From the NCBI GenBank assembly GCA_037974665.1, contig CM075783.1, positions 9,350,762 through 9,414,761 on the forward strand: a stretch of 64,000 nt of DNA, written 5' to 3'. The DNA is from Ehretia macrophylla (taxonomy: Eukaryota; Streptophyta; Magnoliopsida; Boraginales; Ehretiaceae). Positions 6,575-33,541 of this stretch are shown here, piece after piece (the first letter of the stretch is position 1; each line of letters starts with the position of its first letter). The translations under genes and the position numbers were made by a program. The notes under the pieces were generated by a model, which was not told the origin of the DNA, did no database searches, and worked only from the letters and a program-made list of their open reading frames with translations.

Positions 6575-9120
6575 TGAAACACATCGATCCCTCTCGAGAC
6601 CGGAAGTTCTATTAATCAATCTAATCACAACCCAATTCCAAAATCGGGCATAATTTTTTTAGGGAAAACGGACGGAGTTTCCTATGTTTCTAGGCAAAAT
6701 GCAAACCTGCGACAGCATATAAGTAGACCAGCACCGTGTCCAATCATTCAAAATTCCTCAAGGTCATCCGAGCCTCGGTTCTCAACAATTAAACACAACA
6801 AGTATATATACATTTCCAAGTACCCAGACTATTCTAACTCTTTCTTTAAACAATACAAACATGCATTGAAGTTAAACTATACTAACTGAATATATAAACT
6901 AACTTATCATACCACTTCAATAATCTAGTTAAACTTAAATTACATTCATTTTAACACTAAACACATACATTACATGAAAATATACATCTTTACATCTTTG
7001 ACAACTCAAGCCACATAGCATGCAAGGCAACTCTTCAAGCACGATCTATCACATAACCACGAACTTTCCAGCTAACATGGTACTTCCTGAAATGTGGGGG
7101 TGAGGAGTGAGTATACACAACACGTATACTCAGTGAGCGCGGAACAGATATCGAAGTGGAGAGAAAGAAGATCGTGCAATGCAAATAAAACAGTTAAGCA
7201 ATATAACCGACAAGTAAAGCAATCAATATAAACAACAATACAATAAACAATTAATAAAAGTATTAACACAACCATTCAAAGCTATACCACAGTTTGAAGG
7301 CTATGGTTCACTCATACGAGCAATGTACCATTTCACGAGCAATACATGAAGGTCGTGCTTGATGTTGACATCCATGACAATAAGCGCGCAACCACCTTAT
7401 AACATCCACTAGGTATACTCCGGATGTACCCCGACACATCTACGACCCAAATCCCCCAGGGCGGTACCCCTAGCGAGAATGGGAATAGGACATGAAGCTA
7501 GATCAACTAACCCTGGTAGCCTGAGACTACCCAGAGAGGCCCATCACTCACGCACCTGACACTATGCAATGCAATACGAGATACAAGCAATAAACGAGCG
7601 ATAGTACGAAAGTGCAGATTAGTGGCGATATACGAGATATCAAACATTTACAATCAATATTAGCATTCAATTAACTTTTCAAGCATGATTATCATTAACA
7701 TCAACAAGAACATCAATTAAACACGTAATAGCAGTTCAAACACGAAAACGACAATATCACTATTCAATCTCTAACTTCCAAAGGCAATTACGAGCAAACG
7801 AGCTGCGGGATTAAAAAACCGATTTTACTACATTCACTTAGGTACTACAAGGCACGTTTCTATATCACAAAACTTCACTTTCTCACCCGAAGCCCGAAAG
7901 TCCACCTACTACGTTTGAACTACTGCTATGCTAACCGGACACTCAATCAATGCCACAACAGCGCCAAAAGTGCTTCCATGTCCTCAATAGCAAAACCCCC
8001 AACTCAATTCGAGCACGATCAACTCTTGGTCAAACGGCCCCCTTACGTTTCTTTGTCTAATTTTTAATTTTAACAAGGGCCGGTCCATTTTTATTGCACA
8101 TTTTATCTTTCTAACATTAATGGCACCTAATCAAATCAAGAAAACGCGATTCGGAATAAAAATCCAAAAATCTAGGGTTTTACTATTTATTTTTACTATT
8201 CACGTTCTTCCCTAATTTCAATTTGCGTTTCTAGCCATAAAAATTGCTAAATAACTAACAAGCAATGCTCTATGATCCCTAAAGAGACAAGTCCAAGCAA
8301 TTTCAGGCATTATAACGCATTAAATATCAAATCTAAGAAATTGAATCAAAAATTTAAATAAAAATGCACAAAAACGTGAAAACCCTTACAGAGATTGAAA
8401 AGGAAGGCTTGCAAAGACCCGAGCAACGATCCCCGAGCAATTCCACGTAAGATTGCATAAGAAAAATGGAAGCAAAATTCTTTTTTTTATTCCTTGGGAG
8501 TTTTGGCCATGGGGGGGATACAAAGGGAATTTTGGGTTTTGTTTTGTTTTTATTTTTGCCTTGTTTTATTTATAAAAGATGACAAATGGCATTTTGGTCT
8601 TTTTGCAAAGTCAAGCTTAAGTGAAAATATGGTCAAATTAGCTTATTTTGATGTCATTTAATCTAATTCAAGTTAAAACCTTGCAATTCAATAAAAATCA
8701 ACTAAAACTAGTTAAATTAAACTAGAAATACTATTCACAAAATCCGAAAAATATTCTTCTAACTTTCATTTTCAATGCGATACGATCTAGCGATCAATAA
8801 ACGATTACGATAAGTATGGTAAATAATAATATCAAAATATAATTTTTGAAAAGTAGAATAGTAGAATAGTTTAAAACGTACTCCCCCTCGAAGTTACTTT
8901 TCCATTTTGTTGAAAATAAAGTAATTTAAGTGCAAGAAAATAAATCTGAGTTTTGAAAACAATCAAAATAGTTAATACTCATTTAAAATAATTAATGTAT
9001 ATATTACTGAAATACTTTTAAAAGAAATATTAAATCAATGCAAAATGAATAAACTAAGTTAAACAATCAATTAAATGCATCTAAATGCCATTAAATGCGT
9101 GCCGGGTTTGGGTTATCACA
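6575..9120 (-). repeat. 3' LTR of the non-autonomous element
   Basis: About 2546 bp, collinear with 10685-13227. It contains the inverted repeat TGAGTATAC/GTATACTCA (7108-7116 and 7124-7132) and the module around 7440-7560 that is shared with the Tekay-type LTRs. A run of 7 G lies at 8511-8517. Confidence 0.9.
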
Positions 9121-9137
9121 TCCTTCCTTCCTTCCTT
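9121..9137 (-). other. Polypurine tract of the non-autonomous element
   Basis: Plus-strand TCCTTCCTTCCTTCCTT, an all-purine AAGG repeat on the minus strand, directly abuts the 3' LTR. This is the position expected for the plus-strand primer of reverse transcription. Confidence 0.75.
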
Positions 9138-9240
9138 AAAACAATTGCGTCCTCGCAATTCTTCTTCCAATAGAACTCAACATCACCTAAGATCTAACTC
9201 TGACCACTCTTCATTGGTTGTTGAGCAAGACACTGAAAAA

Positions 9241-10030
9241 GATACTCGTAGGAAAACCCAAATAGAAATCCCAACCAAGAATGCCGAGAAAATACCACTA
9301 AAGACTGAAGTAGGGATACTGTACATATTATCAATGCCACATATTATTGACAAGAAGAATACCAAAGGAATATCCTATATATGAATCCCTAATAGAAGTC
9401 CAACAAGTACCCAATAGGAAGTCAAAGGATTGCCAGAGTAGATACAGCACATATAAGACCAAACTCCAAGACCTCATCACCATTTGCCGAGTGCAAACTT
9501 TATACAACTTACCACCAAGAAAACCCCAAGTATTCCACAGCATACCGTAAGCAATATGAGATAATAAGTCTGAACAAGATTCTAAGTGTAAAACTTCCAA
9601 TAAGTGCCATCAAGGAAAATACTAGTAGAATACCCACTAAGAATTTCCAAAGAATACCGTAAGTGGTACTATACAATAAGTATGATAGGAATTCCAAATA
9701 CCATACCTACTGAGGAACACTAAAAAAAATACGCGAAACAATGCTCCAGTAAAAAAGTAGCAAGGATTGCCCAATAAGTAAGTACTAAATAAGTGGCCAC
9801 TAAGGATTCTAGAGAATGCCATTGAAGAATTTCCAATAAGGAATACCAGTAATACACCAATAAAGACCGAGACACATATGTCATAGATAATACCATGCAG
9901 TAAGTCCGATTGAAAACCCAATAGCCAAGTCTACCAAGAAGTGCCAACAGAAGTTCCAAAGAATACCAATAAGAAAACCAAAGAATGCTCCAGAGAACAA
10001 CCAAATAGAACCCCAAAAGAAAGTTACTCT
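9241..10030 (-). repeat. Degenerate 12-bp-period repeat inside the non-autonomous element
   Basis: For roughly 790 bp the plus strand keeps returning to variants of CCAATAAGNANN, spaced 12 bp apart. The stretch 9770-9880 shows about nine consecutive units in register. Because 12 is a multiple of three, the minus strand stays open in several overlapping frames (between about 9331 and 10123) and translates to hydrophobic 4-residue repeats such as YYWY, SLLE, ILQW, HSLE. The shape suggests an ancient minisatellite expansion. Whether it ever encoded protein is unclear. Confidence 0.6.
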
Positions 10031-10670
10031 TTCACAACTGTTAAGCACAGAGGAGGACCTTAGAAATTCACCAATAACCGAGCTCCAAAAGCAAACACCA
10101 ACTCCCAAATAAAGGCTAGTCAAATACTGCTCATTCCCGTCAATCCATATAACTTGGAGGGCCTGCTACTAACCACTTCTCTTCAGGGGAAGAAGAAGTT
10201 TTTCTTACTACTTCAACATGACATGTATGAATGCCAAGATATCACATTTATACATATACGCCTTAATCTATTATGCAAGCATGTTTGTAAAACAGTTTAT
10301 AAAACAGTTTATTCATTAAAGTCACTCAAGCACGACAATAAAGTCAAACACAACATAATCAATTCAAATCACGGCACAACCAATTCAAGACATTCCAATA
10401 CACACATTACAAGCAATACTGCAAGTAAATAACAATTCACGAGGTCGATTCAATTCACGATGTCAATTCGATACACGAATAGTCACTTCACTTCACGTAA
10501 CACACCTTTAGCACATACCACATAACTACATCACGTAGGCACACACATTCAATTCAAGACACACAATCTCATATACAGGCAAACACTTTCAAGACACACT
10601 TAACAAGTATACAACCAAGGGTTACGACCCGACAGACCGAGGACCCTGTCCTGGCTTATAAGCTAAACAA

Positions 10671-10682
10671 GCTCTGATACCA
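10671..10682 (-). other. Primer-binding site of the non-autonomous element (initiator Met type)
   Basis: Plus strand GCTCTGATACCA is the reverse complement of TGGTATCAGAGC, the standard plant initiator tRNA-Met primer site. It sits two bases from the 5' LTR at 10685 and fixes the element's orientation as minus. Confidence 0.85.
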
Positions 10683-10684
10683 CT

Positions 10685-13227
10685 TGAAACACCTTGATCC
10701 CTCTCGAGACCGGAAGTTCTATTAATCAATTTAATCACAACCAAATTCCAAACCCGGGCATAATTTTTTTAGGGAAAACGGACGGAGACTCCCTTGTTTC
10801 TAGGCAAAATGCAAACCTGCGACAGTATATAAGTGGACCAGCACCATGTCCAACCATTCAAAATTCCTCAAGGCCATCCGAGCCTCGATTCTCAACAATT
10901 AAACACAAGTATATATACATTTCCAAGTACCCAGACTATTCTAACTATTTCTTTAAACAATACAAACATGCATTGAAGTTAAACTATACTAACTAAATAC
11001 ATAAACTAACTTATCATACCACTTCAATAATCTAGTTAAACTTAAATTACATTCCTTTTAACACTAAACACATACATTACATGAAAATATACATCTTTGC
11101 ATCTTTGACAACTCAAGCCACATAGCACGCAAGGCAACTTTTCAAGCACGATCTATCACATAACCACGAACTTTTTAGCTAACATGGTATTTCCTGAAAT
11201 GTGGTGGTGAGGAGTGAGTATACACAACACGTATACTCAGTGAGGGCGGAACAGATATCGAGGTGGAGAAAAAGAAGATCGTGCAATGCAAATAAGACAG
11301 TTAAGTAATAAAACCAACAAGTAAAGCAATCAATATAAACAACAATACAATAAATAATTAATAAAAGCATTAACACAACCATTCAAAGCTATACCACACT
11401 TTGAAGGCTATGGTTCACTCATACGAGCTATATACCATTTCACGAGCAATACATCAATCTCGAGCTTAATATTGACAACGATAACAATAAGTGCGCAACC
11501 ACCTTATAACTTTCACTGGGTGTACTCCGGACGTACCCCGACACATCTACGACCCAAATCCCCCAGGGCAGTACCCCTAGCAAGAATGGGAATAGGACAC
11601 AGAGCTAGAGCAACCAACCCTGGCAGCCCGAGAGTACCCAAAGAGGCCCATCACTCACGCGCTTGACACTATGCAATGCAATACGAGATACAAGCAATAA
11701 ACGAGCAATAGCACGAAAGTGTAGATTAGTGGTGATATACGAGATATCAAACATTTACAATCAATATTAGCATTCAACTAACTTTTCAAGCATGATTATC
11801 ATTAACATCAACAAGAACATCAATTAAACATGTAATAGTAGTTCGACAATATCACTATTCAATATCTAACTTCCAAAGGCAATTATGAGCAAACGAGCTA
11901 CGGGATTAAGAAACCGATTTCACTACATTCACTTAGGTACTACAAGGCATGTTTCTATATCACAAAACTTTACTTTCTCACTCGAAGCTCGAAAGTCCAC
12001 CGACTGCGTTTGAACTACTGCTATGCTAATCGGACACTTAATCAATGTTACAACAGCGCCAAAAGTGCTTCCATGCCCTCAATAGCAAAACCCCAACTCA
12101 ATTCGAGCACGGTCAACTCTTGGTCAAACGGCCCCTTTACGTTTCTTTGTCTAATTTCTAATTTTAATAAAGGCCGATCCGTTTTTATTGCACATTTTAT
12201 CTTTCTAACGTTAATGGCACCTATCCAAATCAAGAAATGGCAATTCGGATCAAAAATCCAAAAATCTAGGGTTTTACTATTCATTTTTACTATTCACGTT
12301 CTTCCCTAATTTCAATTTGCGTTTCTAGCCGTAAAAATTGTTAAATAACTAACAAGCAATGCTCTACGATCCCTAAAGAGACAATTCCAAGCAATTTTAG
12401 GCATTATAACGCATTAAATATCAAATCTAAGAAATTGAATCAAAACTAAAATTTAAATAAAAATGCACAAAAACGTAAAAACCTTCACAGAGATTGAAGA
12501 TGAAGCCTTGCAAGGACCCGAGCCATGATCCCCGAGCAATTCCACGCAAGATTACACAAGAAAAATGGAAGCAAAATTATTTTTTTTTTCTTGGGAGTTT
12601 CGGCCATGGGGGGGGGGGGGGGGGATACAAAGGGAATTTTGGGTTTTGTTGTGTTTTTATTTTTGCCTTGTTTTATTTATAAAAGATGACAAAGGGCATT
12701 TTGATCTTTTTACAAAGTCAAGCTTAAGTGAAAATATGGTCAAATTAGCTTATTTTGATGCCATTTAATCTAATTCAAGTTAAAACCTTGCAATTCAATA
12801 AAAATCAACTAAAACTAGTTAAAATAAACTAGAAATACTATTCACAAAATCCGAGAAATATTCCTCTAACTTTCATTTTTAATGTGATACGATCAAACGA
12901 TCAATAAACGATTACGATAAGTATGGTAAATAATAATATCAAAATATAATTTTTGAAAAGTAGAATAGTATAATAGTTTAAAACCTACTCTGCCTCGGAG
13001 TTACTTTTTCATTTTGTTAAAAATATAGTAAATTAAGTGCAAGAAATAAATCCGAGTTTTGAAAACAATCAAAATAGTTAATACTCATTTAAAATAATTA
13101 AAGTAAGTATTACTGAAATACTTTTAAAAGAAATATGAAATCAATGCAAAATGAATAAACTAAGTTAAATAATCAATTAAATGCATCTAAATGCCATTAA
13201 ATGCGTGCCAGGTTTCGGGTTATCACA
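10685..13227 (-). repeat. 5' LTR of the non-autonomous element
   Basis: About 2543 bp, collinear with the 3' LTR. It has the same inverted repeat at 11215-11223 and 11231-11239. It differs visibly by a 17-G run at 12608-12624, where the partner LTR has 7 G. Confidence 0.9.
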
Positions 13228-14531: not shown

Positions 14532-14735
14532 TGTAATAAGAGATAACAACAACATAGATTTTGATAAGCAACAAAATAGATTTTGATAGGATTAATTTTA
14601 ACTTTTATATTGATGTTGTACTTATCCATCCTAGCCTGCTTGTATAGCGTTGTTGTATAAGTCTGTACTTTTACAGAAGTGAGACATACAAAGAGGAATA
14701 ATTGTATTCCAATCCTTTCACGATCCATAAAAAAA
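14532..14735 (+). repeat. 3' LTR of the old Copia element (approximate end)
   Basis: After the RNase H remnant, a polypurine tract (TTGAGGGGG) runs into TGTAATAAGAGATAACAACA, the usual layout for a Copia 3' LTR. The block is about 200 bp and ends near a CACGATCCAT motif. No second copy was found in the window, so the right edge is a guess. Confidence 0.55.
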
Positions 14736-15153
14736 TTTGCTCAACTTTAAGTCAAAACCTATATTTTACTAACAAAAGGAAAAAAACATTACTCCTCTTG
14801 TTTACTTGATATCATTGTATATGATAGTTGAAACTAGTTTAGTAAGTATGACGAGCTCATGCTTTTTTAGAATGAATGAATTTAGTCAAGGAGATGGGGT
14901 ATTCTAAAGAATAAAAATGTCCAAGTCTAATAAGGCTTTTGGCAGGACAAGAAAAAAGGCTTTCAGAGTACACGTGAATATTCATATAGATATTGGATAA
15001 TAGCCTTTAGATTTTGCTATAAAATGAATCCTTTAATTTAACTCGTCAAACATTATAGTTGTTCTTTGAGTACATGGCTGATTTCATGAATAAAGTTTCT
15101 TCATCTAGCAGGTTTGAAGTTTAAGCTCTCTTGATAGAAACTAGAAAGGAAGA
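14736..15153 (+). other. Upstream region of the NLR locus
   Basis: About 400 bp without a gene, between the Copia LTR and the NLR start codon. Apart from the TATA-like site at 15018 nothing specific is visible. Confidence 0.4.
15018..15024 (+). promoter_or_regulatory. Candidate TATA box of the NLR gene
   Basis: TATAAAA in the context TTTGCTATAAAATGAATCC, 130 bp before the NLR ATG at 15154. Spacing and sequence suit a plant core promoter; transcription is not proven. Confidence 0.45.
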
Positions 15154-17718
15154 ATGAATAGGTCTCGTCTATTTTTCAATATTCTCAGACGGCAGCAAGG
15201 AGAATACCGGAGCATCCTAAATAGAGCCCCGTTGAAGGATCATTTCTTGTCCATCAAACATGGGGTTGGTCTTCTACAATTATTTTACGTCGCCTCAGGA
15301 AGAGATGATCTTGATTTGCGTTTTGCAACAATGGTCGACGATGTCAGTGGGGAATTTAGGTCACTCTGCAATAGAGCAATAGATGATGATAGTCTTATCG
15401 TCGACATGGATCGTGCGTATACTAATTTGCGAGAAAAAATAAAGAATGTTCTTATCAATCCAGAAACCGGGGAATATGATACCATGTTGCCGGAAGGAAC
15501 TCATGGTAGCGATATTCTTTTGTTTGTTAGTTGTGTCCTATATGGTTTTGAGGATTTATTAAGCTGTAAGGATGATCAAATTGCCCATTCCATCAAAGAT
15601 AAGCTGCTATTTCTTCGAACTTTCTTGACATATGTAAGCGACAGAGGATTATACTTGAAGGGAAGCCGAGAAATGGTCGCTGTTTTACTTGCTTTAATTG
15701 ACAAAACATCATGTTTCCTCTACTCATGCTTCATTGGCAAAATGGATGAAGAGATGGAACTTGAAATGAAGCATAATCCCTATAATCCATTAGAGAAGAA
15801 TTTTGTGATGGAGGCCTATGTAATGATCTTTAGAGCCTCAACTGGTCTTGATTCACCAGAAAATCTCCTGGAAAGTGAACTTTCTCTCCTTCATAGTTTG
15901 ATAAAGATATTAGAGCCAAAGACAAGTTTTCAGATTTATTTGAATGATCAAAGTATCAAGCTCCACGACAAGTTGAATTTCCTTGCAAATCTTCTTAAAG
16001 ATCTGCCACATGAAGTGATAGTAGACAAGTTCATATATCTAGTACGACCATCCACCGAAGCTATTATTTCTAGGGTAATACCCATCCTTTACTCATCGTA
16101 TGAAGAAGACATGAAAGAAGAGATGGCTTTGGAAGTAAATGATGCAGTTTCTGAGGTGCTTGACCAGATTGAGCATATTCAATTTGAGCTAAGAGAGATG
16201 AAGTTGTATTACTATCCCAAAACTGATGAATTGGGCTTTCTGGATCTTCTCTTGGAACATTTGGAGGAGTTGCTGAAATGTCGACCAGAATTGATTGAGG
16301 TTCTGAGGAATCAAATTGATACGCTAAATGTGGAATTTGATTTCTTGAGATCTTTCCTAAGAAAAATCAAGAAGCAACATAATGAGCATGAAGAACTAGA
16401 AGATCTTTGGACAGGCATCATAGGCTTGGCATACCAGATGGAATACATTATCGATTTTTTCCTTTTAAATCATGATCCTGATGACTCTCGCATCATTTTC
16501 TCACTTTCTAAGATCATAGAGCAAACTAAGCTCATTAGATCAAAGGTAAAGAGGATCTATGATGAGGAGAAGTATCATATGCAACCCCACGGTATGGCGA
16601 AGGCATTCAGCTGTCTTCAATCAAAAGTTATCGATACAACAACAACTAATGAATTAGTAGTGGGGTTCGAGGATGAGGAAGAGAAGGTAATGCAGTACCT
16701 TGTAGGAGGCTCAACGCAACGACATGTTATCTCAATTATCGGTATCCCTGGACTTGGAAAGACGACTCTTGCCAGGAAATTGTATGAGGCTCCTTCAATC
16801 ATAAATCATTTTGATATTCGAGCATGGTGCTCTGTTTCTCAAACATATCGGAAAAAAGAATTGTTGCTTAGCATTTTAGGTAATGCTGTTGGAGATACCC
16901 GTGGAATCAATAACCTGAATGACACAGAGTTATCTGAAAAGCTTTACCAAAGTTTGAAGAAATGTAGATATCTCATCGTCCTTGACGATATATGGGACAT
17001 CGAGTCTTGGAATGATTTGGTAAGATCTCTTCCAGACGACAAAATTCAAAGTCGTATTCTCATAACTAGTAGACTCCACAGTGTGGCTTCACAAATTAAA
17101 GCTGGTAGCATGCATTTTCTTCGTCAATTCTCTCATGATGAGAGTTGGGAGTTATTTCAAAAGAAGCTATTTCTGAAAGAAAGATTCCCTCATGAATTTT
17201 TGGATGTTGGAAAAGAAATTGTAATGTGTTGCAAGAGACTTCCTCTTGCAATTGTTGTGGTAGCTGGACTTCTTACAAAGTAGGAAAAGAATACACATAT
17301 GTGGAAACAAATTACTAAAAGCTTAAGTTCACACATTTTTAGTTACTCGGAAAATCAGTGCAAGGCCATATTGGAGCTGAGTTACATTCATTTGCCAGAT
17401 CATTTAAAATCATGCTTTCTATACATTGGAGCATTTCGAGAAGGCAAAAGCATTATTGTCTCGAAATTGAAATGGTTTTGGATCGCTGAAGGATTTGTAC
17501 GAAATACTACGGGAAAGAGTTTGGATGATGTAGCAGAGGAGTATTTCAAGGATTTAATAAGTAGGAGCCTTGTAACAACTACCGAAGAAAGATCCCAAGG
17601 AGGAACCAAAATATGTGAAGTTCATAATCTCTTACGTGATTTTTGCTTGGAAAAAGCTAAAGAAGAGAAATTTTTGCAGGTGATAGATAACAATGAATTG
17701 CCTGGTAATTGGAGTAAT

Positions 17719-17724
17719 TGGCAT
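17719..17724. repeat. Target site duplication, left copy (TGGCAT)
   Basis: TGGCAT (codons W-H of the NLR) precedes the solo LTR and is repeated at 20244-20249. The usual duplication for this group is 5 bp (GGCAT); the sixth base may be chance. Confidence 0.85.
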
Positions 17725-20243
17725 TGTGATAACCCGAACCCGTCATGCATTTAATTAAGTGTTATCTTAAATGTTAGCATTGAATTTTGTGTTTATTTTT
17801 AGTTAAACATTCATTTGTAGCTTTATTTTCATATTTATGTTAATCGGTTTTATTTTTCTTGCATCTTAATGCTCGGTTCTCAATTAAATGAAAAGTAGCT
17901 CCGAGCCGGAGTAAATTTTTAACTATGTTGCTTTTCAAAAATTATATTTTCTTAAATTCTTTGAGATTTAATTGTTATTCTTTTATTGTCGCAAAGTGCA
18001 TTGAATTTCGAGAGCGATAGTTAGGAAATGATTTCTAGTCCTTAACAAATAGTGAAAACTAGTGTTTGGTGTTTTAATTTTAGTAGTTTAATTGTTATTA
18101 ACTGGAATTGGATTTATGTTAGTTGTTTTAGCTTTAAAATGCATGAAATAAGATTAGTTGACCAAGTTTAAGTTAGCTTTGACCAAGGGCTTTGACTTGT
18201 TGACTCCTTGTCACCTTAAAAGCTTATATTAGCACAAAACAAAAACAAAAAAGAAAGCTGAAAACAGAAATGGAAGGGCCGAAAATATACAGGGAGAAAA
18301 AAAAAGATTTCAATCTTCAAAACTTTAAATCTTTGCGTGAGCTTGCACGGGGTGGTTTCTGAGGCATCCGGCGTGGTTTTCCTAGCGTCTAATAGCGTTT
18401 AAGGTGAGGGTTTCATCGTTATTTGCGCATTTGAAATTATTGTATCTAAACTTTAATTTTTGTGATTTAACCGTAGGTTGTTATTTTATCCATTTCGTTT
18501 CTTAAAGAATGTTCCCTAGCAATCTTAGAACATGTATTTATAGCTTTTTAACATTTTCTGCGGTTGAATATCAAAATTGAAATATAAATTGTTAATTGAA
18601 TAGTAAATTATGAATAGTAAACCCCCGTTTCGATGAAGTTGCTCCGTTATGCGTTCTGTTGATGTAGGAAGGTGCTAGATATGCTTGAATGCCTAAATGT
18701 ATGGTTTAACTGGATTATGTAATGAAAAAACGGAGAAAAATGGCTTAGTGAAAGTTGGGGTCGTTTAGGTCAAGTTTGGCATTCTATCGTTTTTCGTGAT
18801 GGCATTGTCTCGGGAGACCATGGAAGCACTTTTGGTATGGTTATGGCATTGGTTGAGTGCTTGGTTAGGGTAGCGGTAGTTCAAACGAGCAAAGGGGGAA
18901 ATCGGGGCTTTGCGTGAATTCTAGGGTTAAGTAGGGTTTCGGGGTCTTTAGACGTGCCTTATGGTGACTTAGGAGGATTGGTGAAGTCGGTTTCCAAAAC
19001 TCGTGGTTCATTTGAAAGTAATAGTGTTTTGAAAGTTGGGGTCATTTTGTGATTTTGTGTATTTTTCATAGTGTAATGCCTATAGAATGCTTAATGTTAC
19101 TTGTTATGTTTGTTAAAGATGGTTATGATTGAATTTGTATGTCAATTGTTAATAATGCTAGTTAGTATTGTTCATATTACTTTATTGATTGTAATTGCTT
19201 ATTGTATCGCATGTTGTTATTGACTTGCATTCAGTGCCTTGCTCGATTATCGTTATATGTCTCGTATTGCATTGCATTAGAGTCAGGCGCGTGAGTGATG
19301 GGCCTCTCTGGGTAGCCTCGGGTTGCCAGTGTTGGTTGCTCTAGCTCCGTGTCCTATTCCCTTTTCTCGCTTGGGTTACCGCCTAGAGAGTTTTGGGTCG
19401 TAGAATTGACAGAGTATGTCCAGAGTACTCTAACGGAAGTTATAAGGTGAGTGAGCCGGCGTATCATCGTTAAAGTCATCGAAGTCATGATCGGTACATT
19501 TCTCGCTCGAGTGAACCATAGCCTTCAGAGTGTGGTATAGCTTTGAATGGTTGTGTTAATGCTTTCCTTAATTGCTTTTTGTATTGATTGTTTGACTTGA
19601 TTGCTTAATTATCAATTATATTGCTTAACTGTACCTATTTGCATTGCACGATCTTCTTTCTCTCCAATTCGATATCTGTCTCGCCCTCACTGAGTATACG
19701 TGTTGTGTATACTCACTCCTCACCACCACATTTCAGGAAATGCCTTGTTAGTTGGAAAGTTCGTGAATACGTGAAAGTTCATGCTTGAAGAGTTATCTTG
19801 CGTGCTACGTGGCTTGAGTTGTCAAAGATGCAAAGATGTATGTTTCATGTGTTGTTGTATTTAATGTTAATAAAGAATGTAATTTAAATTTAACTAGGTG
19901 ATTGAGGTAGAATGATAAGATAGTTTATGTATCTAGTTAGTATGGCTTGACTTTAATGCATGTTTGTATAGCTTAAAGGAAGAGTTAGAATAGTCTGGTA
20001 CTTGGAAATGTATGTATACTTGTTGAGTTTAATTGTTGAGAAACAAGGCTTGGATGACCTTGAGGTGTTTGAATGGTTGGACATGGTACTGGTCCATTTA
20101 TATGTTATTACAGGTTTTACATTTTGCCTAGAAACAGGGGAGACTCCGTCCGTCTTTCCCTAAAATTTTGGCCGGGTTTGGAATTGGGTTGTGATTAGAT
20201 TGATTGATAGAACTCCCGGTCTCGAGTGGGATCGGGGTGTTAC
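17725..20243 (+). mobile_element. Solo LTR inserted in the NLR coding sequence
   Basis: It starts TGTGATAACCCGAACCC and ends with the ATCGGGGTGTTAC type terminus of the non-autonomous element's LTRs (6575-9120, 10685-13227), in the opposite orientation to those copies. It shares the hairpin TGAGTATAC/GTATACTCA (19691-19699, 19707-19715) and the GGGCCTCTCTGGGTAGCC module near 19298. There is no internal region or second LTR, and the short direct repeat TGGCAT lies on both sides. This is therefore a full insertion later reduced to one LTR by recombination. If the duplication is only 5 bp, the right end is 20244. Confidence 0.9.
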
Positions 20244-20249
20244 TGGCAT
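20244..20249. repeat. Target site duplication, right copy (TGGCAT)
   Basis: Same six bases as 17719-17724. The NLR reading frame resumes here in the original phase. Confidence 0.85.
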
Positions 20250-21377
20250 GATCTTTCGGCAGTATATGTTCAGTGTCGAATTAGCTTTTATTGCCCAATG
20301 GTAGTTTTAAAATCGAAAAAGCCATCTAGCTATAGCCTTCACTCTCTATTATATCATTTTCGTACTCAGTACTTAGATGCAGAGATGTCAATCATTTCTC
20401 AGAATTTTTAGCTTCTTCGGGTGTTGCATATAGATTCTGCAAGGATTGACGAGAATTTTGGTAGAATTGAATTGCTTATTCATTTGAGGTATTTATTTGT
20501 GAAGGGTAAAATACCTTTTATCCCATCATCAATAGCCAACCTTTGGAACCTTCAGATTCTCCTTCTCGAAATGGATGATTATTATAATGATGAGGAAGTG
20601 GCGAGTGTACCAGATTCTGTTTGGGACATGGTGAACTTGAGGCATGTACACATAAATCCCCGTACTTGCTCTAATGTTGACAATCATAGACTTGAGAGGT
20701 CCTCATTATTGGATAATTTGAAGACGTTATCAACACCATGCTTTTCTTGCAAGCAAGATGCGGAAAACTTACTAAGAAGGCTACCGAAACCTAGGAAATT
20801 GAGTTGCGTATTTTTTGACTGTTGGGAAGATTCCAACGACTGCTGTCAGTTTCCAATACTGGACTTTCTCGGTCAACTTACATCCCTGAAGGTTCGTTTT
20901 GAGGGATCTTTGCACTTGAGAAAGAGATGTGAGTTTAAATTCCCTTTAAATCTACAAAAATTGACTCTGTCGAATTGTCGAATATTGTGGGATGACATTT
21001 CAAGAATTGGGAATACACTCCCCAACCTAAAGGTTCTCAAATTAATTGGAAACAATCCTTTCGATAGTACATGGAACATGAATGAAGGGGACTTATTCCC
21101 TCAGTTGAAATGTCTGAAATTAAGCAATCTGAGATATCTTCGTAATTGGATTGCTTCAGAAGAATCTTTTCCCAAGCTTGAACAACTGTTGTTATACCAT
21201 TGCGGGGATCTTAATGAGATCCCTCCTCTTTTTGAAGATATTCCCACACTACGGAAAATTGTAGTGGGTTGGTGCAAAGTTTCTGTGGGTGAATCAGCTC
21301 AGAGAATTCAAGAGGAACAGCTAGATGGATGGCAAAACCAAGAACTCAAAGTCTATATCAATGACCTTTACCAGTGA

Positions 21378-22029
21378 ACACAGGTGAATTTCTTAATTTC
21401 TCTGCTTGTGGAATTAATTACAATTATATATTTCGCTGTTTCTACTTATTAATTTGTTTATTTTTGGCTAGCTTAAGACCCGTGAGAATTCAAATATTAT
21501 TATATATGAATTAGTAGTGATGCTTTGTGAGTTATACTGCAACTTTGCTTGTTTGTTTTACCCCGATTTCCCATTAAATTCCTAAAATTTCACAACTTAT
21601 CTTGTTGTGATTGAGCGTATATTTCATTCGTTTTCTAATCTAGTTGGTATTCCATGCTTCCTGTTCTTAAGATGTATTTTTCCTGACATTTGCAATTTTT
21701 TCGTCTGTAACTTATGCTACCCCGCGCTCATTCCCAGTCTTGTTTGATAATCCATGCATATATATATTTGTTTATAATCACCCATGATGACTTCCAGCTT
21801 GTGAACAATTAGGTTTGTAGCATGAGTTGAAACTATTAAATATTAATTTGTGCAAAATTTCCAATTCACTATAATTCATAGTCCCGTCTGCACATTTTCT
21901 TTGCAAAACTTTCGGAAACATATACTTTTCAAAATAAAACGCTACTACATTTTCATATGCTAGTGATTTGAAACTAATCTTAAAACATGGTGTTTACTTT
22001 GTGTATCTCCATAGTAAAGTGTGTATATG
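21378..22029. other. Downstream flank of the NLR locus
   Basis: AT-rich DNA of about 650 bp with no gene, repeat or signal that could be supported. It probably includes the former 3' UTR. Confidence 0.4.
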
Positions 22030-22256
22030 TATATATGTTTTGTAACACTAAAGAAGACAGATAAAGACGAGAGATACATGGAGAAAAGAGAAAAGTTATT
22101 TTATTACTTTTCTTGAGTGTGTTATATTATAACGTAGAGAGTTCTATTTATAGAGAAATACAACTTACTTTTTAAGTAATCCCTAGAGGGCTTTTATATT
22201 CATGGGTTTAGTTTTGGGCTCCAAAACTAACTTGCGGACCAAACAATGAATATCCA
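22030..22256 (-). mobile_element. Copia-like LTR fragment
   Basis: On the minus strand this reads like a short Copia LTR: GGTGGATATTCATTGTTTGG at the start, then CTCTATAAATAGAACTCTC as a TATA region, then a pyrimidine-rich leader. The opening resembles that of the Copia LTRs at 44041 and 52015 (GGTGGATATTCA), but the rest differs. There is no partner LTR and no clear duplication, so family and ends are uncertain. Confidence 0.45.
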
Positions 22257-22261
22257 CCTAT

Positions 22262-22263
<2 letters not shown>

Positions 22264-22314
<51 letters not shown>
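22264..22314. repeat. (TA)n microsatellite
   Basis: About 24 uninterrupted TA units. Length is likely polymorphic. Confidence 0.9.
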
Positions 22315-22316
<2 letters not shown>

Positions 22317-22387
22317 TTGGAATATTTTGTTTTGGAATAGGTTCTCTTTAATATCTTTTGTATAAACTGGTATGTATATAAGTTCTA

Positions 22388-22776
22388 GGGTAAATTTTAC
22401 ACTTAGTTCCTATTGTTTACATATTTTTTTAATGTAATTCTTAATGTTTTAAAAGATTTATAGTGGTTCCTAATTGTTACAAAAATTATTCAAAATGGTT
22501 CTTATTATTCAAACTTAGTCAATTTGGTCTCTATTGATTTAAAAATTTTAATTTAGTTTATATTACTTTTTAAAAAAATTCAATTCAGTCTTTACACGTG
22601 ACCCGACTAAATTAAAATTTATGAGAAATAATAGGGGCTAAATTTGCTAGTTCTTAACAATGGGGATCATTTTGAATAACTTTATAAATATTAAGGACTA
22701 ATATAATTTTTTTAAAATATTAAAAATCAATTTTAAAAAAAATATAAATATTAGAGACTAAGTGTGATATTTACTT
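22388..22776. mobile_element. Mutator-like MITE, copy 1
   Basis: A 389 bp non-coding element starting GGGTAAATTTTACACTTAG and ending with the imperfect inverse CTAAGTGTGATATTTACTT. It is largely self-complementary and flanked by TAAGTTCTA (22379-22387) and TAAGTTTTA (22777-22785), a 9-bp target duplication with one mismatch. Nine-bp duplications are the hallmark of the Mutator superfamily. A second copy lies at 44461-44835. Confidence 0.75.
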
Positions 22777-22870
22777 TAAGTTTTATGATTTGAACACTTT
22801 TGAACTATGCCTTACTTATGGAATAGAGAAATATTACATGTTGGTCTTGTCAATAGGAGTCAACAGTTTA

Positions 22871-22895
22871 CATACTATACTATACTATACTATTA
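22871..22895. repeat. Short (TATAC)n run
   Basis: Four to five copies of a 5-bp unit (TACTATACTATACTATACTA). Minor simple repeat. Confidence 0.8.
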
Positions 22896-22956
22896 AAGTG
22901 CACCGTTGTTTTGGATATCCTATACAACAACTAGGGGCCATATACCCACTATTAAG

Positions 22957-24063: not shown

Positions 24064-26336
24064 TGTAATACCCGAGCCCGGAATGTGAAAATCCCTTGTT
24101 TATTATCTTGAAAATTATATTTCCTTAAATTCTTTGTGAATTAATTGTTACATTCTCGCCGTCGCAACGTGCATTGCATTTCAGGAGCGTTAGCTAGATA
24201 ACGATTTCCAGTCCTCAGCAAATAGTGAAACTAGTGTTTAGATGACTTAAATTTTATATTTTAATTGATACTAGCTGATAATTTAATTGGTGTTAGTTAT
24301 TGAGCTTAAAAATGCACAAAAATAGGGCATTTGACCAAGTTTTAAGTTGTTTGACCTAGACCTTTGACCATTTGACCACTTAGCACTTAAATAAGCTTTT
24401 AACTTAGCAAAATAAAAATAAAAAAAAACAGCAGCTGAAACAGAGAGAGAGGGCCGTGAGTTCCAAGAGAGAGAAAAAAAAGATTTCAACCTTTCAATCG
24501 TTCAATCTTCGCGTGAGCTCGTGCGGGGTGATTTTCGAGGTAACTAGCATTGTTTTCCTAGTGACTAGGAGTACCTGAGGTGAGGGAATCATGCTATTTG
24601 CGCATTTAAATGTTTAGTGTATCAACTTTGCAATTTTTAGATTTTATCCGTAAATTGTTGTTTAAAGCGTTTTGATGCTTCTAGAATGTTCCTTGGCTAT
24701 TGTAGAACGTGTATTTATAGTTTTTTAACATTTTCTGCGGTTAAATGTTGAGATTGCAATTAAATTTGGGTGTTGAATAGTGTTTTATGAATAGTAAACC
24801 CTTGGAACGATGAAGTTGTTCCGTTATGCTGTCCGTTGATGTAGAATTGTGCTAGGTGAGCTAGAATGCCTAAATGCATGGTTTGTTTGGGTTGCGTAAT
24901 GGAAAAAACGAGAATTAAGCCTTGTTGAAAGTCGGGGTCGTTTAGGTCGACTTTAGCATTTTCTCGTTTTGTATGTTGGCATTATATCGGGAGGCCATGG
25001 AAGCACTTTTGGTGCGTTTATGGCGTTGGTTGGGTGTTTGGTTGATATAGTTGTAGTTCAAACGAGAAAGGGGAAAATCGAGGCTTTGCGCGAGTTCTAG
25101 GGTAAAGTAAGGTTTCGGGGTCTTTAGACGTGCCTTATGGTGACCTAGGAGGTTTGACGAAGTCGGTTTCCAGAACTCGTGGCTCGTTTGGAAATGGTAG
25201 GGTTTTGATAGTTGGGGCCGATTTGTGTTTTTTGCTTGTTTTCTTGATTTTATGTCTATAGAATGCTTAGGGTTACTTGAAATACTTGTTTGAGTTGTTT
25301 TGGATTGAATTGCTTATCAATTGCTGCTATTACGTGCGAGAGTAACCTACTTTGTTATTCTCCCACGTGTGGCTTTATCGCCTTGTATCGAGTCTTGCAT
25401 TGCATAGTGTCTCGCGCGTGAGTGATGGGCCTCTCTGGGTAGCCTTGGTTTGCCAGTGTTGGTTGCTCTAGCTCCGCTGCTATTCCCTTTCTCGCTTGGG
25501 TTGCCTCCCAGGGAGATTTGGATCGTAGGTTGATGGATACTTCCGGGGTATTCCAAACTGGTGTTATAAGGTGGTTTGGGCCGACGCGTCGTCATCGAAT
25601 TCTTGAATGAAAGTTGCTCGTGAAAAGAGTACCGTATCCTTTGAATGAATGTTTATAGTCTTTAATGCTTGCCTTGTTATAATATTGACTTGTTTGTATC
25701 TTTAAATGTTAATTGTATGCATTGCTTGGCTAATTGCATTGCATACTCCTCTCATCTCCGTCCTTGAGACCAATTGCCCTCGCTGAGCAATAGTTTTTTC
25801 TCATTCCTCTCTATACTATATTTTTACAGGAGTAGTTGAAGCAGACCCTCTTGAGGTAATTGAGGATGAGGAATAGGTGGAGGTGTTCCCGTGATTGTAC
25901 TTCTTTGCTTTGCTGGTGGTTGGTTGCCAGATTTTGTGCGAGCCTTGCTTGATATGTATATTGCTTGGATGTCGCCTAATTTTGAGGCTTGTAGCCTTGT
26001 ATGTATTTTCTAGTTTGAGGCCTCTACGGTCTTATGATGTATAAGTTGAAAGAATGTAAAGATTACTCTTGTGACTAGTAAAGAAATGCATGCTAATAGC
26101 TAACTGTTTAGTGGCATAAATACTTGCGTAGTATGCATGGCATTTTGGTTTGGGAAAGTTGGTTAATAAGAGGATGTATGTTTTTAAAAGAAAGTTGGCT
26201 TGTTTTGATTATTATATGGCTTTCGCAAGTATTATATTGATTTTAGGATTTTCGGATCGTCCGCGGTACAGAGGAGACTCCGTCCGTGTGTCGGGTCCGG
26301 GCTTGGCCTTTTGCGGGGTCGGGTCGGGGCGTGACA
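24064..26336 (+). repeat. 5' LTR of the Tekay-type element
   Basis: 2273 bp, TGTAATACCC to GCGTGACA, collinear with 31275-33541. It contains the GGGCCTCTCTGGGTAGCC module (near 25427) shared with the solo LTR and the non-autonomous element. Confidence 0.95.
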
Positions 26337-26344
26337 TCTTTAGG

Positions 26345-26356
26345 TGGTATCAGAGC
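26345..26356 (+). other. Primer-binding site of the Tekay-type element
   Basis: TGGTATCAGAGC, complementary to plant initiator tRNA-Met, 8 bases after the 5' LTR. Confidence 0.9.
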
Positions 26357-26646
26357 ATGATAGTCTTGCATGAGCCGGGATATGATTCTCGGTCTGTGGG
26401 GTAAAGGTCTAAAATGCTAAAGTGTTTATGTATGATTGCTAAGTGAAAAGAAATGTTCTAGCATGACTTTGTGAACTTGGAATGTTTATGTGTTTAAGTG
26501 AAATAGTTTGGCAAGTTGAACTTGTCTTATGTGAATTGTGTGATAGAATATTGGATTGTTATTGACTTGAGTGTTATCTAATCTTATGTGCTATATTTCT
26601 GTCTATAACTGCTTTTAAATGTTGCCAGCTATTGTGAATTGCTACT

Positions 26647-29600
26647 ATGCCGCGCCGCCGTGGTACTCAAGGTATAGGATCAGATGAAGAGGCAGCAGAA
26701 CAGGGTCAGCAGCCGTTGCCTGAGCAGTTTATGGCTACCATGACTACTGCAGTAGACCGGATTACACAGGTGCTGCATGAACAGAGGCAGGACAGGATTA
26801 ATTCCCAGGGAAATCAAGCTAATCCTGGTGGACAGGGGTATAGGGTTGAGAATAACCAACTAGAGAAATTTCTGAGGCATGAGCCAGAAAAGTTCTTCGG
26901 AGAGCCGGATGATGAGGCGGCCGAGAGATGGATTAATCGAGTTGAGAAGATTTTCACCGCGTTGAGGTACACTGATGAGGCAATAATAGACTATGCGTCA
27001 TTCTTATTTGAGGGTGATGCAGAGCAGTTGTGGAATACTGTCAGGAGGAGGTGGGATTGTGAGGATGTACCACATTTGTGGGATGATTTTGTAAGTGAGT
27101 TCCGGGACAAATATATTCCCGAGATGGCTATGGAAATGAGGGAAGACGAGTTTGGGGCCCTGAAACAAGGAAATGTGACTGTTGCACAGTCCGAGGGTAG
27201 GTTTGTTAGCGTGTCGAGGTATATGCCCTAGTTGGTACAGCCGGTTAGGAGGATAATTCATAGGTTTGTCCGTGGGCTGAGAATGGACATTCAGTTGCAT
27301 TTGACTGGGCAGACCTACACTACTTTTTTTGAGGCATTTCTAGCAGCCTCGAAGTTTGAGAAACGGAAGGCTGAGATGATAGCTGAGAGCAGTCAGCCGA
27401 GTAAGAAGCAGTATTTGGGCCAGAGCAGCCAGAGTCAGCCGAGGCAGTATCAGACTTCTGCACAGGGTCCTCAGCAACGTCCGTATCAGCCACAGCAGCA
27501 GATTCAGGCTAGGCCAGCTGTGACTAGACCCCAGCAGGGAGGTACAGTTCCTACTACTACCAGAGCCCCAGCACCTACGGGAAACACTGCAGTTAGGCAA
27601 AATCAGCAGTGTAATTATTGTAATCGATCAGGGCATATTGAGGCTAACTGCTGGAGGAAGAGTGGTAAATGTACGGGTTGTGGCAGTGATGATCACAGGG
27701 TGAGAGATTGCCCTAAGTATAACAATGTTCAGGGCCGTGGTGGAGGCCAAGGTGTTCAGAATAGGGCTGCAGGTGCACGTCCAGCACAGAGAGTTCAGGC
27801 TAGGGTCTTTGCACTAGATGCGGAGGAGCTGCCCGATACTACAACTATTGTGGAAGGTACCTTTCTTCTCAATACTCAGCCAGTTAAAGTTTTGATTGAT
27901 CCCGGAGCTACACATTCGTTTATAACTCCTGCATGTGCACGATCTGTGAATGTTTGCATTGATAAATTGCCGCATGAAGTTGAAGTTAGTACTCATTTGG
28001 GTGCAAAATTTGTTACTGAGTCTATTTGCAAATCTTGTGATATATGTATTGAGAACCGTAAATTTCCTGCTGATTTAATTATATTGCCATTCCGTGACTT
28101 TGAAATCATTTTGGGAATGGACTGGTTGGGAAAGTATTATGCTCAGTTGGATTGTAGAACAAAGGTCATTTATCTTCAGGTTCCTGACCTACCGGTACTA
28201 GAGATTGTTGGGAACTGCAGGGCTGCCCGAATTCCACTTTTATCAGCGATCAAGACTTCTAAGTTGTTGAATAGGGGTTGTGAAGCTTACTTAGCTTATT
28301 TGATCAATCAACCTACTGATAAGTTGAGTTTGAATGAGGTTCCGATTGTTAGAGACTTCCCTAGTGTATTTCCTGAGGAATTACCGGGTTTACCACCGGA
28401 TAGGGAGATTGAGTTTGTGATTGATCTTGTGCCAGGCACTGCGCCAATTTCTAGGAGTCCTTATAGAATGGCATCGGCCGAACTTCAGGAGTTAAAAATT
28501 CAGCTTCAGAACTTGCTTGAGAAAGGGTTTATACAACCTAGTTCTTCGCCGTGGGGTGCACCTGTGTTGTTTGTGAGAAAGAAAGACGGCACGCTACGGT
28601 TATGTATTGATTACAGGGGACTTAATCAAGTCACGATTAAGAATAAATACCCCTTGCCGTTGATTGAAGAATTGTTTGACCAGTTGCAAGGTGCGAGCGT
28701 TTACTCCAAATTTGACTTGAGGCAAGGTTACTATCAACTTAGAATTCGGAGTGACGATATACCGAAGACAGCTTTCAGGACTAGATATGGCCACTATGAG
28801 TTTGTTGTGTTGCCGTTTGGATTGACGAATGCACCAGCCGCATTCATGGACTTGATGCAGAGGGTTTTCCGACCTTACCTTGATCAGTTTGTCGTAATCT
28901 TTATTGACGACCTTTTAGTGTACTCGAAGAATGAGGCTGAACATGAGCAACACTTAAGGATTGTGCTTCAGACTTTACAGGAAAACAAGCTTTTTGCTAA
29001 ATTCAACAAGTGCGAGTTCTGGTTGAATCAGATATCTTTTCTAGGCCATATCATTTCAGATCGAGGAATTTCGGTGGACCCAGCTAAGATTGAGGTTGTT
29101 TCATCTTGGAAGAGACCTGAGATGGTGTCAGAGATTCGGAGTTTTCTTGGATTGGCAGGTTACTACCGGAGATTTATTAAAGACTTTTCCAAAATTTCTG
29201 GACCTTTGAGCCAGTTGGCTCGAAAGAAAGTTGCTTACAACTGGGATGCCAAATATGAATCCAGTTTCCAAGAATTGAAGAAGAGACTAACTACAGCTCC
29301 TATATTAGCTTTACCTGAGGGAACAGAGAACTTTGTTGTCTACAATGATGCATCTAAAGAAGGTTTGGGCTGTGTTTTAATGCAGAATAGTAAGGTGATT
29401 GCCTATGCTTCTAGGAAGTTGAAACCTTATGAAGTCAATTACCCTACACATGATCTTGAGTTAGCTGCAGTTGTGTTTGCTTTGAAGAAGTGGCGTCATT
29501 ACTTGTGGGGTTGCAGATTTGAAATATTTACTGACCACAAGAGTCTCAAGTATTTGTTTTCACAGAAGGATTTGAATATGAGGCAGCGGAGATGACTAGA

Positions 29601-31263
29601 GCTATTGGGTGGTCACAACTGTTCTATTAACTATGTGCCAGATAAGGCAAATATTGTTGCTGATGCTTTGAGCCGAAAGGCTACTGTTGCAAGCTTGATT
29701 ATCAAGGATTGGGGGACTTTGGAAGAAATTTGTTCATGAAAGCCAGAAGCTACTGAGGTAGGGATTCGATTTGCTAGTTTGCAGATTCAGTCAGGGTTGC
29801 TAGCACAGATCAGAGAGGCTCAGAAGACTGATCCTCACCTCTTGAAGATCCAAGAAAAATCAAAAGGGGGAGAGTCGGAGTTTAAATTACATGCAGATGG
29901 CATCTTCAGATTCAGGGACAGGGTGTGTGTTCCTGGTGATCCGACTTTGAAGAATGAGATCCTGTTCGAGGCACATAATTCGAGGTATACGATTCACCCG
30001 GGCAGTACTAAAATGTATAGAGATTTGAAGCAACACTTCTGGTGGAACAATATGAAGAGGGAGATTGCTGGGTATGTATCCAGATGTTTGACTTGTCAGA
30101 GGGTTAAAGTTGAGCATCAGAGGCCAACCTGACTTCTACAGCCGTTGTCGATTCCGCAATGGAAGTGGGTACATATAACAATGGACCTTGTGACCGATCT
30201 TCCTAGATCTCCGAGAGGATGTGATTCTGTTTGGGTTGTTGTGGACCGCTTGACTAAAGTTACACATTTTATTCCCGTGAACAAACAGGATAGCCTTGAT
30301 AAGCTAGTTGAGCTTTATGTTGCTAATATTGTGAGATTGCATGGTGTGCCACAGAGTATAGTGTCAAATAGGGATCCCAGATTCAGATCTCGTTTTTGGC
30401 AGAAGTTGCAAGAGGCCTTGGGAACTAAGTTGAGCTTCAATATTGCATATCATCCGCAAACTGATGGCCAGTCTGGGAGAACCATCAGGATCTTGGAAGA
30501 CATGCTTCGGGCATGTGTGTTAGAGTTTGGGAAGGATTGGGAGAAGTTTTTGCGTTTAGCGGAGTTCGCCTACAACAATAGTTATCAATCTACTATAGGT
30601 ATGGCTCCCTACGAGGCGTTGTATGGTCGGAAATGCAGATCCCCATTATATTGGGAAGAGGTTGGAGAGATGAGAACAGTTGATCCGACTGTGTTACCTG
30701 AGATGATTAAGATGGTAGATAATGTTCACCTTATTCGCCAGCGTATGCTTACAGCTCAGAGTCGTCAGAAGAGTTATGCGGATAAGCACCGTCGGGATCT
30801 TGAGTTTGATTTGGGAGATTGGGTGTTTCTTAAGATTTCTCCACGGAAGGGATTGATTCGGCACGGTAAGAGCGGGAAGCTTAGTCCCAGGTATGTGGGT
30901 CCGTACGAGATCACCGAAAAGGTAGGTCCTTTGGCTTATCGATTAGCTTTGCCTCCGAGCTTGTCGAGACTGCACGATGTGTTCCACGTGTCTATGTTAA
31001 AGAAGTACCATCCAGACCCTTCACAGGTACTTGAACCAGAACCTTTGCAGATTGAAGAGAAGTTGTCCTATGAAGATAAACCGATTCGAATTGTGGATCG
31101 GAAGATTCAGGAGCTTCGCAGAAAGAGTATTCCATTAGTAAAGGTTCTGTGGAATCATCATGGGTTTGAGGAAGCAACTTTGGAAAGAGAGGAGCAGGTT
31201 CGGGATCAGTATCCGGAGTTGTTTGTTGACCAGGTAAGAATTGCGTGGGCGCAATTGTTTTAA
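26647..31263 (+). pseudogene. gag-pol region of the Tekay-type element (fossil)
   Basis: Starts at ATGCCGCGCCGCCG. Approximate parts: gag 26650-27780, with capsid-like LEKFLRHEPEKFFGEP and zinc knuckles [14 protein letters not shown] and [14 protein letters not shown]; protease near 27890 ([12 protein letters not shown]); reverse transcriptase 28400-29130 ([19 protein letters not shown]); RNase H near 29340 ([14 protein letters not shown]); integrase about 29780-30960 (HPGSTKMYRDLKQHFWW, VVVDRLTKVTHFIPV); and a chromodomain-like end near 31140-31240 (KVLWNHHGFEEATLEREEQ). It is broken in about four places and so is not expected to give a working polyprotein. All domains remain easy to recognise, in keeping with a fairly young insertion. 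Confidence 0.92.
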
Positions 31264-31274
31264 GGGGGAGAGGA
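31262..31274 (+). other. Polypurine tract of the Tekay-type element
   Basis: AAGGGGGAGAGGA directly before the 3' LTR, the expected position for plus-strand priming. Confidence 0.9.
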
Positions 31275-33541
31275 TGTAATACCCGAGCCCGGAATGTGAA
31301 AATCCCTTGTTTATTATCTTGAAAATTATATTTTCTTAAATTCTTTGTGAATTAATTGTTACATTCTCGCCGTCGCAACGTGCATTGCATTTAGGAGCGT
31401 TAGCTAGAGAACGATTTCGAGTCCTCAGCAAATAGTGAAACTAGTGTTTAGATGACTTAAATTTTATATTTTAATTGATGCTAGCTGAAAATTTAATTGG
31501 TGTTAGTTATTGAGCTTAAAAATGCACAAAAATAGGGCCTTTGACCAAGTTTTAAGTTGTTTGACCTAGACCTTCGCCCCTTTGACCACTTAGCCTTAAA
31601 ATAAGCTTTTAACTTAACAAAAAAAAAAAAAAAAACAGCAGCTGAAACAGAAAGAGAGGGCCGTGAGTTCCAAGAGAGAAAAAAAAAAGATTTCAACCTT
31701 TCAATCTTCAATCTTCGCGTGAACTCGTGCGGGGTGAATTTCGAGGCAACTAGCATTGTTTTCCTAGTGACTAGGAGTACCTGAGGTGAGGGAATCATGC
31801 TATTTGCGCATTTAAATGTTTAGTGTATCAACTTTGTAATTTTTAGATTTTATCTGTAGATTGTTGTTTAAAGCATTTTGATGCTTCTAGAATGTTCCTT
31901 GGCTATTGTAGAACGTGTATTTATAGTTTTTTAATATTTTCTGCGGTTAAATGTTGAGATTGCAATTAAATTTGGGTGTTAAATAGTGTTTTGTGAATAG
32001 TAAACCCTTGGACCGATGAAGTTGTTCCGTTATGCTGTCCGTTGATATAGAATTGTGCTAGGTGTGCTAGAATGACTAAATGCATGGTTTGTTTGGGTTG
32101 CGTAATGGAAAAAACGGGAATTAAGCCTTGTTGAAAGTCGGGGTCGTTTAGGTCGACTTTAGCGTTTTCTCGTCTTGCGTGTTGGCATTATATCAGGAGG
32201 CCATGGAAGCACTTTTGGTGTGTTTATGGCGTTGGTTGGGTGTTTGGTTGATATAGTTGTAGTTCAAACGAGAAAGGGGGAAATCGGGGCTTTGCGCGAG
32301 TTCTAGGGTAAAGTAAGGTTTAGGGGTCTTTAGACGTGCCTTATGGTGACTTAGGAGGTTTGTCGAAGTCGGTTTCCAGAACTCGTGGCTCGTTTGGAAA
32401 TTGTAGGGTTTTGATAGTTGGGGCCGATTTGTGTTTTTTGCTTGTTTTCTTGATTTTATGTCTATAGAATGCTTAGAATTACTTGAATTACTTGTTTGAG
32501 TTGTTTTGGATTGAATTGCTTATCAAATTGCTGCAATTGCGTGCGAGAGTAACCTACTTTGTTATTCTCCCACTTGTGGCTTTATCGCCTTGTATCGAGT
32601 CTTGCATTGCATAGTGTCTCGCGCGTGAGTGATGGGCCTCTCTGGGTAGCCTTGGGTTGCCAGTGTTGGTTGCTCTAGCTCCGCTGCTATTCCCTTTCTC
32701 GCTTGGGTTGCCTCCCAGGGAGATTTGGGTTGTAGGTTGATGGATACTTCTGGGGTATTCCAAACTGGTGTTATAAGGTGGTTTGGGCTGGCGCGTCATC
32801 ATCGAATTCTTGAATGAAAGTTGCTCGTGAAATGAGTACCGTATCCTTTGAATGAATATTTATAGTCTTTAATGCTTGCCTTCTTATAATATTGACTTGT
32901 TTGTATCTTTAAATGTTAATTGTATACATTGCTTGGCTAATTACATTGCATACTCCTCTCATCTCCGTCCTTGAGACCAATTGCCCTCGCTAAGCAATAG
33001 TTTTTGCTCATTCCTCTCTATACTATATTTTTACAAGAGTAGTTGAAGCAGACCCTCTTGAGGTAATTGAGGAAGAGGAATAGGTGGAGGTGTTCCCGTG
33101 ATTGCACTTCTTTGCTTTGCTGGTGGTTGGTTGCCAGATTTTGTGCGAGCCTTGCTTGATATGTATATTGCTTGGATGTCGCTTAATTTTGAGGCTTATA
33201 GTCTTGTATGTTTTTTCTAGTTTGAGGTCTCTACGGTCTTATGTTGTATAAGTTGAAAGAATGTAAAGATTACTCTTGTGACTAGTAAAGAAATGCATGC
33301 TAATAGCTAACTGTTTAGTGGCATAAATACTTGTGTAGTATGCATGGCATTTTAGTTTGGGAAAGTTGGATAACAAGAAATGTATGTTTTTAAGGAAAGT
33401 TGGCTTGTTTTGATTATTATATGGCTTTCGCAAGTATTATATTGATTTTAGGGTTTTTGGATCGTCCGCGGTACAGAGGAGCCCCCGTCCGTGTGTCGGG
33501 TCCGGGCTTGGCCTTTTGCGGGGTCGGGTCGGAGCGTGACA
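31275..33541 (+). repeat. 3' LTR of the Tekay-type element
   Basis: 2267 bp, collinear with the 5' LTR and ending GCGTGACA before the second CAGCC. Confidence 0.95.

Follow-up and report, generated by a model that had tools for sequence, protein, structure and literature searches.

One of the closest described systems is the susceptible allele of Crr1a in Brassica rapa, in which a solo LTR lies in an NLR exon together with a conserved target duplication and further lesions, a loss of function being inferred by its authors (PMC3559844). Crr1a represents the nearest precedent in the open-licence full-text literature, so that an NLR exon carrying a solo LTR has been published before. In wheat Sr22b retrotransposons are found within an intron without loss (PMC8882774), and work on cacao describes birth-and-death of NLRs with many pseudogenes (PMC12405883). 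The locus presented here is very probably an NLR gene interrupted by a Ty3-type LTR element that was later reduced to a solo LTR, with two nonsense mutations in addition, and would represent a fairly recent, non-functional pseudogene.

The locus occupies positions 15154-21377 of the window, which is the whole stretch of 64,000 bp that was analysed (G000:C20:9350762-9414761, from a 1.58-Gb genome in 20 contigs). A single NLR reading frame can be followed in pieces between these limits (Table 1), with the flanking exon pieces B and C1 in phase. In agreement with the sequence-only reading made before this analysis, the only frame-breaking lesions in its 1,230 codons are two TAG codons and the LTR, and no frameshift was found over that length. 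The open frame is accordingly not intact, being broken at 17281, at 20409 and by the LTR at 17725-20244. A protein made from the first ATG would stop at codon 709, within the NB-ARC domain and without winged helix or LRR, which makes it most likely that this member of the CC-NB-ARC-LRR family is a pseudogene without function.

Table 1. Features of the interrupted NLR locus, in window coordinates.
Feature	Position	Strand	Description
5′ flank	14720..15153	+	homologous to C4 paralogue flanks (longest matches about 82-86%)
NLR piece A	15154..17280	+	709 codons: N-terminal extension (about 360 aa), Rx_N, NB-ARC
Premature TAG number 1	17281..17283	+	sense codon in 18/18 paralogous genes
NLR piece B	17284..17724	+	147 codons: winged helix (WH_DRP), MHD region (here VHN)
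Target-site duplication GGCAT, left copy (most likely length)	17720..17724	+	TGGCAT 17719-17724 if counted as 6 bp
Solo LTR	17725..20244	+	TGTGATAACCC to GTGTTACT, about 2.52 kb, Ty3-type element family; last base unlike other copies
Target-site duplication GGCAT, right copy (most likely length)	20245..20249	+	TGGCAT 20244-20249 if counted as 6 bp
NLR piece C1	20250..20408	+	53 codons, phase matches piece B
Premature TAG number 2	20409..20411	+	sense codon in 14/14 paralogous genes readable here
NLR piece C2	20412..21377	+	321 codons (20412-21374) plus stop 21375-21377: leucine-rich repeats
3′ flank	21378..22955	+	patchy homology to flanks of C4 paralogues

When the pieces were searched separately against Pfam, Rx_N (28.4 bits, with a cut-off of 27.7), NB-ARC (170.6), WH_DRP (65.4) and LRR_14 (61.0) were detected; Rx_N, NB-ARC, winged helix and LRR thus follow each other in the order of a CNL (CC-NB-ARC-LRR), which upholds the identification of the gene as an NLR. 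Rx_N starts at residue 363 of piece A, behind a long N-terminal extension of the kind that we take to be a trait of the R1-type group. NLRs of this type generally depend on an NRC-type helper. In a PDB sequence search NRC3 and NRC2 were top-listed, with matches that cover residues 364-707 or 376-707 of piece A and are confined to Rx_N and NB-ARC. The gene had also been called R1-type from its sequence, a name that is right as kinship and unproven as a domain: PF12061, the R1 N-terminal region, is absent from the 17 families matching piece A at E<=10, but it exceeds its cut-off at 69 places in the genome (133 of 155 candidates scored), and 11 of these fall in relatives of 52-57% identity. Piece A retains intact P-loop, kinase-2 and GLPL motifs. 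The position of the MHD-type motif, which affects receptor activity, reads VHN instead of the usual VHD; this change was set aside as a cause of death, VHN being shared by C4_38535071, whose 1,310-aa frame is open.

The borders of the inserted DNA are those of a defined family. Its 5′ end, TGTGATAACCC, is common to all seven fetched copies (L002-L008), three of which show a polypurine tract directly before it. At the other side, the three fetched 3′ ends (L069-L071) all read GTGTTACA, in one case (L070) with a primer-binding site close behind, and the NLR copy, ending in GTGTTACT, agrees with them through GTGTTAC and then has T at 20244 versus their terminal A. None of the internal region of the element is left at the NLR site, where the exon resumes directly after the LTR, and the insert is therefore a solo LTR, with family-specific ends, no interior and a flanking duplication. 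The TGGCAT match noted from the sequence is exact at both sides of the LTR, but as a target duplication it is most likely one base shorter: because the three fetched LTR ends finish in A, and because both complete related elements of the window carry 5-bp duplications (GCAAT and CAGCC), the duplication is most likely GGCAT, and the sixth matching base would be the LTR's own altered last base. A 6-bp duplication plus loss of the LTR's last base could also give these flanks, and is less likely on the same two grounds. A 5-bp match at fixed borders has, by arithmetic, a probability of about 0.001, and the duplication is not a matter of chance. The added DNA, consisting of the LTR and one copy of the duplication (17725-20249), measures 2,525 bp, or 2 modulo 3, and the frame running into the LTR meets a stop at 17752. 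Since its length is not a multiple of three and it brings its own stop, the LTR itself is not in-frame, and its earlier description as such holds for the exon pieces, which are in phase once the LTR and one duplication copy are discounted.

Matches to the first 676 bases of the LTR are widespread in the genome, the best other one among the 40 scored of 8,847 candidates having 96% identity, and the last part of the LTR is likewise matched at many places, 40 out of 6,328 candidates having been scored. The spacing of LTR pairs, about 4.1-4.4 kb in several genome copies, suggests that the family is mostly non-autonomous. At G000:C10:76319286-76328640 three LTRs stand in series with a spacing of about 4.35 kb, as unequal recombination between elements leaves. 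Within the window, a short complete element on the minus strand (6575-13227) has LTRs about 93% identical, an interior of about 1.6 kb and its 5-bp GCAAT duplication, read in the element's orientation; it is apparently non-autonomous. The complete Ty3-type element on the plus strand (24064-33541) has gag-pol frames, LTRs 96% identical and the 5-bp duplication CAGCC.

The NLR copy was compared with 18 paralogous genes, 13 of them close and 5 more distant, the protein match lists representing lower bounds. Among the matches listed, the best others lie on contig C4, at 38.5-39.5 Mb and 50.7 Mb, with 76-78% protein identity. In 8/18 paralogues the counterparts of the two codons bordering the LTR are immediate neighbours; in the other 10 the step is unreadable, one or both of these residues being unaligned. 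Together with the LTR borders and the exact match, this adjacency bears out a solo LTR inside the NLR with its duplication intact. The position of the first TAG (17281) is a sense codon in all 18 paralogous genes, and that of the second (20409) in all 14 that can be read there, one of which is unaligned on the 3′ side (4/18 unreadable). Homology also extends into the flanks. In the 1.5 kb taken next to each paralogue it reaches, with gaps, from 14720 as far as 22955. The presence of homologous non-coding flanks on both sides indicates that the copy arose at the DNA level with its surroundings, and rules out a retrocopy origin. Of the 13 close paralogues five are open and eight lack a piece or contain a stop or frame break, and thus interrupted receptors are common in the clade of the NLR copy; several of the close paralogues are near-identical tandem copies, and counted by lineage 5/8 are broken.

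Some further features of the family were observed. Between 38.82 and 39.49 Mb of C4 (L011/L012, L015/L016/L017 and L018/L019), NLR copies with 98.8-99.8% identity recur about every 236.8 kb (spacings of 236,817, 236,839, 236,851 and 236,849 bp, then 235-240 kb), a recurrence that would reflect either recent tandem triplication of a segment or a duplication made in assembly. In two near-identical broken copies on the same contig (38.997-39.007 and 39.234-39.244 Mb) the LRR part is split, with its halves about 9.8 kb apart; the splits fall near query residue 106 and represent another large insertion in a paralogue. Four dispersed LRR fragments (C18:76601972, C20:45996926, C1:31384215 and C1:17333413), 72-78% identical, all match the same two stretches (query 71-227 and 214-318), and might perhaps be a piece captured by a mobile element.

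The time of death was estimated from the lesions, taking a nonsense share of 4.3% of mutations and, from seven LTRs pooled, an indel rate of 19 private frame-changing indels to 289 private substitutions. By the lesion count, 0.005 substitutions per site (0.0006-0.018) have accumulated since death; at 1.3e-8 per site and year this corresponds to 0.4 My (0.05-1.4), and at half that rate to 0.8 My (0.1-2.8). Nonsense changes alone give 0.013 (0.0015-0.046), a wider estimate, so that the tighter figure rests on the LTR indel rate. The terminal branch of the solo LTR measures 0.041, which at 1.3e-8 per site and year corresponds to 3.2 My. A gene dead over this distance would be expected to carry about 16.5 lesions versus the 2 observed (P of two or fewer about 1e-5), or 6.5 if nonsense changes alone are counted (P 0.043), and thus part of the divergence on the LTR branch probably predates the insertion. 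The LTR alone was discarded as a means of dating, as its branch resembles those of other copies and would include donor-inherited divergence; the LTR tree is star-like and poorly supported (mostly 20-36), with L002 as an outlier at 0.127. By itself, the LTR is no evidence of youth, its terminal branch not being short. The lesion count supports a fairly recent death relative to the divergence from the paralogues, in keeping with what had been supposed from the sequence, and, given a synonymous distance of 0.14-0.23 between the NLR copy and its close paralogues, places it in the late part of the copy's history.

The starting point was very probably a solitary R1-kin sensor NLR copy, derived at the DNA level from a family now clustered on C4. 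A Ty3-type LTR element would have entered it near the end of the winged-helix/MHD region, making a 5-bp target duplication, and recombination between the two LTRs, the standard route, would then have deleted the interior and left the solo LTR, with two nonsense mutations arising one on either side of it. There is about an even chance that the LTR insertion came first and that the TAG codons followed in a dead copy: the count of two lesions fits neutral decay over about 0.005, and the LTR terminal branch permits a longer time, although one genome cannot tell this order from the reverse. That the gene was killed by the TAG at 17281 and was already dead when the LTR arrived is a serious possibility, to which we give somewhat less than an even chance. 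This codon lies upstream of the LTR and truncates the protein whatever the LTR does, and a solo LTR in the exon would cost nothing further selectively if the gene were already dead, but the TAG carries no date, and the absence of frameshifts limits the time between the two events. With one TAG standing 441 bp upstream of it, the LTR is a candidate, not an established, silencer of the receptor. The TAG/LTR allele could segregate against an uninterrupted working allele as a presence/absence receptor polymorphism within the species, which we consider unlikely; a cost of the working allele would possibly maintain such a polymorphism, the NLR copy having VHN and not VHD.

A codon model over 13 genes, with p values uncorrected for several tests, gave an omega of 0.64 on the NLR branch (95% interval about 0.48 to 0.86, read from the profile) versus 0.72 in the background, a difference that is not significant (p 0.44), and rejected an omega of 1 for the whole gene on that branch (p 0.003). 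By part, the values compared with 1 were 0.76 for A (p 0.20), 0.60 for B (p 0.33) and 0.53 for C (p 0.007, uncorrected); A and B singly do not reject an omega of 1, and the codons after the insertion are on average below neutrality. Omega separates live from dead copies poorly and is weakly diagnostic, because among six other branches the value is 1.07 for C4_38945963, which has no stop, and 0.58 for the broken C4_38755944; C4_50726123, also stop-free, has 0.66, further broken copies have 0.84 and 1.01, and the 3.6 of C4_39481845, on a very short branch, was left out. In view of this overlap, omega is a weak means of dating the death. Private changes at otherwise invariant positions number 18 in the NLR copy, joint highest of nine close copies (4-18 in the others), and 25-34 in the four distant ones of the tree. 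A functional truncated protein, comprising the N-terminal extension, Rx_N and most of NB-ARC and ending at the first TAG, is very improbable: piece A is open over its 709 codons, with the motifs named above intact, but it is not more constrained than piece C, and the proposal is not favoured. An assembly artefact or a chance match, for which the use of one assembly only would speak, is hardly credible against family-specific LTR borders with the duplication at both, phase-correct pieces and adjacent residues in the paralogues.

The interruption by a Ty3-type element together with two nonsense mutations offers a clean, datable death of an NLR by retrotransposon, and a marker for birth-and-death turnover in the R1-kin cluster. 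An uninterrupted allele, if one came to light in related plants, would make it possible to test the receptor's value directly by comparing the two; alone, the case alters no general view. With Crr1a it shares an NLR with a solo LTR in an exon, a conserved duplication and further lesions in the same allele, whereas Crr1a is a TIR-type NLR with a 357-bp Ty1-copia LTR in exon 1, for which resistant and susceptible alleles were compared (PMC3559844). The present copy is CC-type and R1-kin, with a 2.5-kb Ty3-type LTR in a single open frame and a single allele. Like the R1-type sensor NLRs, represented by R1 of Solanum demissum, it has an N-terminal extension, Rx_N, NB-ARC, winged helix and LRR in one open frame, but it has no PF12061 match at E<=10 and is broken by two TAG codons and the LTR. 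Its LTR resembles plant Ty3-type solo LTRs in the TG start, the 5-bp duplication and the many dispersed copies, sister copies having a polypurine tract and a primer-binding site, but it ends in T instead of A. The present case is thus a further instance of an already known kind of NLR gene death, ordinary in a fast-changing family.
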